Of a stretch of DNA of 64,000 bases, positions 3,003-62,890 are shown one piece after another. Within the stretch, counting starts at the first letter, position 1. Each line of letters opens with the position of its first letter. The DNA comes from [Clostridium] ultunense DSM 10521. Its GTDB lineage: Bacteria; Bacillota; Clostridia; Tissierellales; Tepidimicrobiaceae. The notes under the pieces were generated by a model. It searched no databases. It had not been told where the DNA came from and saw nothing but the letters and a program-made list of their open reading frames with translations. The translations under genes were made by a program, and so were the position numbers. The DNA lies in the NCBI RefSeq assembly GCF_000511955.1, contig NZ_AZSU01000002.1, positions 587,487 to 651,486 on the forward strand, in the 5' to 3' direction.

Positions 3003-3047
3003 AAAAAAGGCTTCCTTGATTTAAAATTTTCAATGGAGGTCTTTTTT
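3003..3047 (+). terminator. Rho-independent terminator after the chemoreceptor
   Basis: An A-rich arm ending GGCTTCC pairs with GGAGGTC running into six T residues, using two G-U wobbles. It lies 27 bases after the receptor stop codon. Confidence 0.65.
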
Positions 3048-3158
3048 ATAACGAATAGGAAAGTTCTCACTTGTTAAATATTAATAAAAGAGGACTTTCC
3101 GTTATGAGTTTCAAGAAAAGCTTCCTTAAAAATGTTTCAATAAAAGCTTTTCTTATTT
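3045..3158. repeat. Two-hairpin dispersed repeat, copy 1
   Basis: Non-coding. First hairpin pairs GGAAAGTTCTC (3058-3068) with GAGGACTTTCC (about 3090-3100), extended by ATAACG with CGTTAT. Second pairs AAGAAAAGCTT with AAGCTTTTCTT and runs into T residues, so it could also terminate transcription. A copy of about 80 percent identity lies at 33481-33592. Both copies sit in the leader of a housekeeping gene (glpX, tagO). Confidence 0.8.
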
Positions 3159-32291: not shown

Positions 32292-33449
32292 ATGAAAGAT
32301 AGGATACAAAGATTGATTGAAGAAGTAGAAAATGAACTTATAAATTTAAGTGAATATATCTATAATAATCCTGAATTAGGTTATGAAGAGTATAAATCTT
32401 CAAGGGCTCATATAGATTTACTAAAAAAATATAATTTTATTGTAGAAGAAAAATATATAGGAATAGATACTGCCTTTAAAGCCGAGTATAAAGGCCAAAA
32501 AGAAGGCCCTACTATTGCATATCTTACAGAATACGATGCATTACCAGGGATTGGCCATGGATGTGGTCACAATCTGCTTGGAACTGTAAGCACGGGGGCA
32601 GGAATAGTATTAAGCAAATTGATAGATGAGTTAGGAGGGAGGGTATTAGTATTTGGTACACCAGCAGAGGAGACCAGTGGAGCTAAAGTTATAATGGCAG
32701 AAAAGGGCTCCTTTAATGACGTAGATGTGGCTATGATGGCCCATCCGAATGATACTTTTTGTGAAAGTGGTAAATCCCTAGCATTAGAACCTATTCAGTT
32801 TACCTTTAGAGGGAAAACCGCCCATGCTGCTTCTGCCCCCGAGAAAGGGATCAACGCATTAGACGGAGTTTTACTGACCTTTAACGGAGTAAATGCATTG
32901 AGAGAACATATATTACCAACTGCTAGAATCCATGGAGTTATAATAGAAGGTGGAAAGGCAGCAAATATAGTCCCAGATTTGGCAATAGCTCAATTCTATA
33001 TAAGGGCTACTACAAAGGAATACCTTATAGAATTAAGTGAGAAAGTAAAAAATTGTGCTAAGGCAGCAAGTTTGGCTACGGGTACTAAGTTGGAAATTAC
33101 AAATTATGAGGCTTCCTATGATAATTTGGTTACAAATCAAGTACTATCCAGTAGATTTACCCAAAATTTAAAAATATTTGGAGTAGAAAACTGTGAGAAA
33201 CCTAGAGATACTTTTGGGTCCTTAGACATGGGGAATGTTAGCCATGTCTGTCCTGCTATTCATCCCTATTTTGCTATAACAGAAGGTAAAACTATAGCAG
33301 CCCATACAACGGAATTTGCCGAAGCAACTCTTACAGATATAGCCTATAAAAATATGGCCAAAACAATAGGGGCTTTAGTGTTAACTGGTATTGATGTAAT
33401 TAGAGATAAACAGCTTCTAAAGGATATAAAGGATGAGTTTAACAAATGA
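32292..33449 (+). CDS. M20-family amidohydrolase (AbgB/ACY1L2-like)
   Basis: 385 residues. Unlike the operon's first M20 enzyme it carries TEYDALPGIGHGCGHNLLGT, the signature of the aminobenzoyl-glutamate hydrolase/ACY1L2 branch, then GTPAEETSGAKVIMAEKG and TFRGKTAHAASAPEKGINAL for the lid domain. This branch cleaves aminoacyl amides, including dipeptides with unusual basic residues and beta-alanyl-lysine or ornithine compounds in the animal enzyme. That would agree with an ornithine theme. ATG 32292 is five bases after AAGAGGTGA. The last gene of the operon; a terminator overlaps its stop. Confidence 0.88.
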   Translation: MKDRIQRLIEEVENELINLSEYIYNNPELGYEEYKSSRAHIDLLKKYNFIVEEKYIGIDTAFKAEYKGQKEGPTIAYLTEYDALPGIGHGCGHNLLGTVSTGAGIVLSKLIDELGGRVLVFGTPAEETSGAKVIMAEKGSFNDVDVAMMAHPNDTFCESGKSLALEPIQFTFRGKTAHAASAPEKGINALDGVLLTFNGVNALREHILPTARIHGVIIEGGKAANIVPDLAIAQFYIRATTKEYLIELSEKVKNCAKAASLATGTKLEITNYEASYDNLVTNQVLSSRFTQNLKIFGVENCEKPRDTFGSLDMGNVSHVCPAIHPYFAITEGKTIAAHTTEFAEATLTDIAYKNMAKTIGALVLTGIDVIRDKQLLKDIKDEFNK

Positions 33450-33484
33450 GTCGGTAGCTACAACTATCGACTCATTTCTTTTAT
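33444..33484 (+). terminator. Terminator of the IclR catabolic operon
   Basis: ATGAGTCGGTAG pairs with CTATCGACTCAT with a single G-T wobble, followed by TTTCTTTTAT. It overlaps the last codons of the M20 gene. Confidence 0.82.
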
Positions 33485-33592
33485 AACGAATAGGAAAGTT
33501 CTCATTTTAAAATGTAAAATAAAGAGAACTTGACCTATATGAGTTTTAAGAAAAGCTTCCTTAATAATGCTTCAATAGAAGCTTTTCTTAAT
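33481..33592. repeat. Two-hairpin dispersed repeat, copy 2
   Basis: About 80 percent identical to 3045-3158. First hairpin AAGTTCTC with GAGAACTT (a G-U pair in copy 1 is A-U here), outer ATAGG with CCTAT; second hairpin TAAGAAAAGCTT with AAGCTTTTCTTA, perfect 12 bp. Lies between the operon terminator and tagO. No reading frame. Confidence 0.8.
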
Positions 33593-62747: not shown

Positions 62748-62776
62748 ATGTTCATAAATTAATAGAAATCTTGATG

Positions 62777-62877
62777 CCTTATCAAGAGAGGTGGAGGGAA
62801 TGGGCCCTATGAAACCCGGCAACCTGTATTATACAAAGGTGCTAAATCCCACAGAATTTGGATTCTGAAAGATGAGG
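62777..62877 (+). ncRNA. SAM-I (S-box) riboswitch
   Basis: Core elements in order: CCTTATCAAGAGAGGTGGAG, GGAATGGGCCCTATGAAACC, CGGCAACC, AAGGTGCTAAATCCC and CAGAATTTGGATTCTGAAAG, closed by GATGAGG, which pairs with the opening CCTTATC. High S-adenosylmethionine should favour the terminator that follows. Confidence 0.96.
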
Positions 62878-62890
62878 TTACTATTAAATT

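Follow-up and report, generated by a model that had tools for sequence, protein, structure and literature searches.

A 107-bp two-hairpin repeat of [Clostridium] ultunense belongs to a clostridial family of apparently mobile elements inserted behind terminator-like T-runs

Two copies of a two-hairpin repeat lie in a 64,000-nucleotide stretch of the [Clostridium] ultunense DSM 10521 genome (contig NZ_AZSU01000002.1, positions 587,487 to 651,486 of the forward strand; hereafter, the window). We find that the family to which they belong is almost certainly an inserted mobile DNA element, and the explanation that we favor for the whole is a short (~107 bp) non-autonomous element that would travel as single-stranded DNA, with a Y1 HUH (REP-type) transposase acting on it in trans. 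An earlier reading of the window from its letters alone (the sequence-only reading) had pointed out the repeat and suggested either a small non-autonomous mobile element or a structured leader RNA. The repeat itself is real: its copies, at about 3045-3158 and 33481-33592, are 85% identical across 115 bp (BLAST, E 5e-30), and the 22-mer TATAACGAATAGGAAAGTTCTC is present at exactly two places in the window, with 0 occurrences expected. The two hairpins described for each copy also stand, as the two-hairpin fold of either one beats 200 of 200 shuffles both as DNA and as RNA (z of -4.1 and -5.1, respectively, for copy 1, and of -6.2 and -5.0 for copy 2). The exact element is shorter than the ~112 bases first noted: it spans 107 bp, at 3049-3155 and 33484-33590, or one base further left.

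Filled and empty sites indicate that the element was inserted. The site of copy 2 is empty in Clostridium sp. Cult1 (genome G001, locus L276), where GACTCATTTCTTTTA is directly followed by ATTGACTTATTC. This genome reads GACTCATTTCTTTTAATTGACTTATTC, and the window is identical but for 107 bp between TTTTA and ATTGAC, i.e. the junction CTTTTA/ATTGAC corresponds to CTTTTA/[107 bp]/ATTGAC (slashes mark element boundaries throughout). Copy 1 is absent from G001 and from G002, both of which retain the glpX promoter-like region; the upstream genes differ in these two genomes, and the left junction is not comparable. The genes downstream of both window copies keep promoter-like regions at the element-less loci of congeners. 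A further orthologous pair comes from Intestinibacter bartlettii, in which strain DSM 16795 is filled (L175) and strain N19 is empty (L228), with a junction that differs by one base; in three of the five N19 comparisons (L086, L082, L110), divergence was too great for the junction to be read cleanly.

Paralogous empty sites lead to the same picture. Thermotalea and genus g19 have other dispersed repeats with the element inside them, and sister copies of these repeats lack it. The g19 series is the most informative. For its host repeat (genomes G025 and G041), at least 12 empty copies read CGCTTTTATTTTTTC, while six filled ones read CGCTTTTA/TAATCC...GTTC/TTTTTTC. From the changed base after the right end in these sequences, it is clear that the final base belongs to the element and the A preceding the left end to the target; the target is therefore TTTTA/, without target duplication. 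For copy 2, whose empty site is exact, a target site duplication could measure 2 bp at most, and there is none in the host-repeat series. TTTAT was considered as a target and dropped, since the empty sites place only TTTTA outside the element. As to the host repeats themselves, the one in g19 is dispersed, is at least 245 bp long and has 49 and 34 matches in two genomes (L289, L292, L295, L304, L324-L346); some of its copies contain the element, always at the same internal position. The Thermotalea metallivorans repeat, dispersed as well and of ~127 bp or more, has long self-complementary ends (AACCCTTGAGATTT...AAATCTCAAGGGTT) and is also invaded by the element (L136:5147-5282, L194:2501-2627, L081, L121).

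The family is also far larger than the pair from which it was recognized. With copy 2 as a BLAST query, the 3.2 Mb genome yields about 20 copies that are complete or almost so, and fragments besides. The covariance-model search of genome and relatives that the sequence-only reading had proposed gave, with a model (R1) built from 78 copies, 25 matches in the own genome; of the relatives, 16 of 61 had matches, or 12 of 40 genera, with up to ~60 per genome (62 candidates per genome were scored, so that high counts are lower bounds). A scan of genome contigs with a degenerate pattern found at least 116 stretches in named Clostridia, from at least 10 named clostridial genera; among the matches listed are Thermotalea, Intestinibacter, Tissierella, Tepidibacter, Thermohalobacter, Maledivibacter, Alkaliphilus, Anaerosolibacter, Anaerovirgula, Alkalithermobacter, Lutispora, Romboutsia and a Peptococcaceae bin. 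The viral contigs gave 0 matches to two element patterns, and phages and plasmids no convincing one, the sole exception being a marginal Borrelia match of 43 bases. No Rfam family reached its gathering score for either copy, both showing weak sub-threshold chance matches only. We found no description of the element in the literature searched, most subscription journals being outside the reach of that search, and the 107-bp family appears to be undescribed so far.

The copies differ in age. Those of G025 are young, being ~89% alike (string-similarity ratio), with pairs of up to 97%. In G033, almost identical copies stand in tandem, in arrays of three and of four, at 102-103 bp spacing (L306, L307). 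Elsewhere, a copy is shared at one locus by both species of a genus in three cases (L005/L061, L017/L064, L016/L062), and L012:1509-1616 and L054:1498-1554 have the element at an orthologous locus in two genera of one family, which may reflect a very old insertion, a repeated insertion or co-option. Since copies are shared across species or genera, insertions can persist. Left-end-only copies are decayed fragments ahead of ordinary genes; four of them (L246, L251, L255, L261) immediately precede genes of like orientation, as though they had lost the terminator-like right half.

Each element is built of two hairpins, and their pairing is kept across the family. The consensus starts after a T-run and A with TAACnnATAGGAAA, passes through a distal stem and loop to TTTCCGTnATGnnGTTTCAA and n AAA, and closes with stem 2, its loop and CTTTnTT(A or C). 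Two n positions of hairpin 1 co-vary (AC/GT, CC/GG, GC/GC, or GA/GA, a tandem mismatch), and one pair of hairpin 2 alternates between A-T, G-C and C-G (34, 20 and 9 sequences, respectively). Over 25 stem pairs, 82% of the cells pair, compared with 41-57% when the partners are slid; 101 cells are changed on both sides, versus 41 in shuffles and 10-30 when slid, and the covariation score is 0.153 versus 0.091. The shuffle test is inflated by the relatedness of the rows, which the slid control preserves. RNAalifold returned no structure for the 78-row alignment, in which the distal stems are misaligned; for this reason the stems were written by hand and then counted, which leans towards structure but not towards the covariation score relative to the slid versions. 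The compensating stem changes which the sequence-only reading described are strongly present in the wider family but not in the window pair, where the 5' arm ATAACGAATAGGAAAGTTCTC is identical and the 3' arm alone differs; because of this identity, the pair by itself shows no compensatory change. GAGGAC versus GAGAAC, offered as a compensatory change, is one-sided, as the facing 5' arm is unchanged, and CGTTAT and CCTAT, listed there among differing outer pairs, each pair with a different part of the same 5' arm. The suggestion of a small non-autonomous mobile element fared better, and ~25 genome copies, orthologous and paralogous empty sites and strong structure-keeping covariation in relatives speak for it.

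These stems do not seem to be maintained as RNA. An RNA kept by selection would be expected to tolerate G-U over A-C. Counted on the hand-placed structure with the distal stem excluded, the stem mismatches comprise 63 G·T and 66 A·C, i.e. there is no preference, whereas tRNA acceptor stems in the same sequences, a small control, have 6 G·T and 0 A·C. As G·T and A·C are equally frequent, no functional RNA is being preserved in the resident copies. Equal counts are what one would get from neutral decay in resident DNA copies, and the stem covariation would then reflect change in the moving source copies.

Insertion is fixed in orientation, occurs immediately 3' of TTTTA and prefers intrinsic terminators. 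In 238 left ends, T is present at each of positions -1 to -4 before the A in 94-100% (the ends were anchored on the A at 0 and the following TA, and these bases are no evidence), and TTTTA/TAAC stands directly at the hairpin foot in the 238 copies. A hairpin of -8 kcal/mol or lower lies just before the T-run in 52% of 198 copies, but in only 14% of 3301 control T-runs, i.e. other intergenic T-runs of these loci (p 4e-23). In 117 of 164 cases, the gene upstream is oriented towards the element. Copies are found both behind gene 3' ends and ahead of genes, in either orientation, and in some of them the T-run opposes a ribosome-binding site. Because the right end is itself a hairpin plus T-run, the element is a target in its own right and tandem arrays form. 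In these arrays, which reach four copies, the insertion point lies behind a right hairpin of the element itself, and the spacing is the 102-103 bp given above.

How might such an element move? Y1 HUH single-strand transposition is characterized by a short 5' target, hairpins at both ends and the lack of target site duplication and terminal inverted repeats (PMC6006769, PMC2817692). The element matches IS200/IS605 in these traits, having a short fixed 5' target, one orientation, two end hairpins, no target site duplication and no terminal inverted repeat. In the scheme that we propose, the moving form would be single-stranded DNA. A chromosomal gene would provide, in trans, a Y1 (HUH tyrosine) transposase of the IS200/IS605-REP superfamily, and this enzyme would recognize both hairpins and join the element 3' of TTTTA while that strand is single-stranded. 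A terminator hairpin with its T-run would mimic the right end of the element, which would create the target preference, and as a side effect on the host, each insertion would add a terminator-like hairpin between genes. Candidate enzymes are at hand: the own genome has two Y1 genes, one of which (P0001) passes the NCBIfam model for 'REP-associated tyrosine transposase' (REP_Tyr_transpos; 82.9 bits, cut-off 80), and a right-half element lies 91 bp upstream of the REP-type Y1 gene of this genome. Intact Y1 genes are present in 14 of the 16 element genomes, and the other two (G025, G027) have decayed remnants, which were found with a profile of clostridial Y1 proteins. At L351:1501-1794 and L352:1501-1962, in two element-rich genomes, genes for REP-type Y1 transposases are decayed and interrupted by several stop codons.

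Several observations weigh against this scheme. An autonomous copy, with element ends around a transposase gene, was not found in the Y1 loci or among the left-end-only copies. Y1 genes are carried by 31 of 45 element-free relatives, as compared to the 14 of 16 carriers with intact ones, which is no clear association, and co-occurrence tests of the Y1 transposase and of group II reverse transcriptase showed that neither explains the distribution of the element. About 40 Y1 loci were scanned and only one (L209/L348) had an element fragment in the vicinity, a single partial copy upstream, which could be coincidence. On the left side, the hairpin is flush with the boundary, while IS200/IS605 ends are subterminal and use a guide tetranucleotide, and no guide was identified here. 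Finally, movement is deduced from filled and empty sites and was in no case observed directly. The link to the enzyme is thus circumstantial, although the boundaries fit, and an HUH mechanism as such is a possibility that we put forward with less than even confidence. More speculative still, and in our view rather unlikely, is the idea that the family supplies the missing DNA substrate for those REP-type Y1 transposases that are 'orphans' and have a C-terminal helix-turn-helix (subclass 2.1, or RAYT group 1), forming a terminator-homing single-strand system that selects target terminators for their likeness to the element's right end. Subclass 2.1 enzymes have no known REP partner (PMC6006769). 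In the Y1 proteins found here, the Y---NP motif and additional C-terminal residues recall that subclass.

If it is not a Y1 enzyme, the next candidate would hypothetically be a site-specific recombinase, tyrosine or serine, with a circular form going into a T-rich core; such a route has been proposed for the Bacillus cereus bcr repeats, which are tied to TTTAT motifs. The T-run flanking both sides without duplication would suit such an enzyme, but the right T-run belongs to the covarying stem CAACAAAATC/GATTTTGTT of the element itself, and the flanks are therefore not a shared crossover core. Considering also that crossover cores need no adjacent terminator hairpin and that no linked recombinase was seen, we regard this explanation as improbable. 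In retro-insertion, a reverse transcriptase, such as that of a group IIC intron, would take RNA that ends at the element's own terminator and copy it into the T-runs of terminators. This explanation draws on the terminator-like hairpin and T-run at the element end and on the fact that group IIC introns target intrinsic terminators (PMC4424553). It is very unlikely nevertheless, as 8 of the 16 element genomes, including copy-rich G025 and G054, lack group II reverse transcriptase (E<=0.001), and the element has no intron domains, no Rfam match and stem mismatches without RNA preference.

Two more familiar explanations fare no better. A classical miniature inverted-repeat transposable element (MITE), i.e. 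what internal deletion leaves of a DDE-type insertion sequence that has terminal inverted repeats, would likewise be small, AT-rich, intergenic, non-coding and multicopy. It is highly improbable here, given that the ends (TAACnnATAGG and CTTTTYTTA) share few bases at most and form no terminal inverted repeat, that the resolved empty sites show no target duplication, and that the orientation is fixed relative to the T-run target. A conserved structured RNA (leader, small RNA or regulatory terminator) kept by selection at each place could account for the strong covariation and for the loci shared across species or genera (the four pairs named above). We give it hardly any credence, as G·T equals A·C in the stems, the position relative to genes is not fixed, orthologous sites are empty, insertions lie within other repeats and the distribution is patchy. 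The structured leader RNA of the sequence-only reading is likewise not supported, the window copies being absent at congener loci, the placement relative to genes varying and the stem mismatches showing no preference for G-U.

Compared with known systems, the element is neither a standard REP, nor a MITE with terminal inverted repeats, nor a group II intron; it resembles REPs and IS200/IS605 derivatives in function, and SPRITE and bcr repeats in appearance. Like REPs with their TnpA-REP/RAYT enzymes, it is a multicopy intergenic sequence of imperfect hairpins with compensating changes between species and no target site duplication, with a low-copy Y1 transposase in most carriers. REPs measure 21-65 nt, have a GT[AG]G foot and are arranged with the transposase gene between two inverted REPs (PMC2817692, PMC6006769). 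The element, unlike them, is 107 bp long, consists of two different hairpins in one orientation after TTTTA, has TTTTA/TAAC instead of GT[AG]G at the foot, and does not flank the Y1 gene as two inverted copies at any of the ~40 Y1 loci; a REP-type Y1 gene does occur in the same genome, which is not specific in view of the 31 of 45 non-carriers with Y1. With the non-autonomous derivatives of IS200/IS605 and the ends of group A IStrons it shares end hairpins, insertion 3' of a short specific target, and the lack of target site duplication and terminal inverted repeats. Group A IStrons, which are clostridial and IS200/IS605-based, target TTGAT, ATTAT or TTTAT (PMC4227781). Unlike IS200/IS605 derivatives, the element has flush instead of subterminal hairpins and a 3' terminus of TTA or TTC, not TCAG, and no parent was found. 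SPRITE of Streptococcus pneumoniae is similarly terminator-like, AT-rich and enriched near gene 3' ends (PMC3049150), but is an 18-bp duplex plus T tract of one species complex, with target and empty site not resolvable. The bcr1-bcr18 repeats are of the same size class, dispersed between genes, structured and TTTAT-linked (PMC6542083), but are confined to the B. cereus group; both comparisons are by description. Group IIC introns share insertion at intrinsic terminators (PMC4424553), but are ribozyme retroelements and far longer, and the 107-bp element, which has no open reading frame, contains none of their domains.

Terminators are a safe harbor for a mobile element, and this family, spread across several clostridial families (Tissierella, Tepidibacter, Alkaliphilus, Thermohalobacter, Intestinibacter and others), appears to choose them by structure. 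As clean filled and empty sites define its ends and target to the base, the moving enzyme is directly testable; if orphan REP-type Y1 enzymes do move it, the long-standing substrate question of the largest REP-transposase subclass would be answered. On the practical side, each copy adds an intergenic terminator-like hairpin, and copies should be masked in searches for riboswitches or small RNAs.

In the window, both copies lie on the forward strand upstream of genes of the kinds named in the sequence-only reading, and, as stated there, are non-coding (no open reading frame of 100 aa or more in either). Copy 1 (TAACG...CTTTTCTTA, 107 bp, 3049-3155; alternative register 3048-3154) precedes glpX, encoding class II fructose-bisphosphatase (396 bits, cut-off 259). 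It is inserted after TTTTTTA at 3042-3048, in line with the TTTTA/ target rule. Its hairpin 1 (AACGAATAGGAAAGTTCTC...GAGGACTTTCCGTTATGAGTT) occupies 3050-3110 and hairpin 2 (AAGAAAAGCTT...AAGCTTTTCTT), the terminator-like right end, 3113-3154, both being assigned by fold and family covariation. To its left, 3003-3047 (AAAAAAGGCTTCC...GGAGGTCTTTTTT, forward strand) is probably the right-hand half of another, older copy, assigned by eye from the hairpin-2 consensus, with no separate significant search match (DNA fold z -3.7), and its T-run was probably the insertion site used by copy 1. This tandem layout recurs at other loci.

Copy 2 (TAACG...CTTTTCTTA, 107 bp, 33484-33590; alternative register 33483-33589) lies upstream of a WecA/MraY-family glycosyltransferase gene. 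Its target, at 33444-33483, is the terminator of the amidohydrolase gene plus the T-run and A, as read from the sequence and the terminator association of the family. Hairpin 1 spans 33485-33546 and the terminator-like hairpin 2 33548-33589, again by fold and family covariation. The genes upstream of the window copies encode a methyl-accepting chemotaxis protein and, on the side of copy 2, the amidohydrolase. The only Rfam matches in the window are a tRNA and a SAM riboswitch, both outside the copies; the latter (RF00162, 91.9 bits) lies at 62776-62878, away from both of them.
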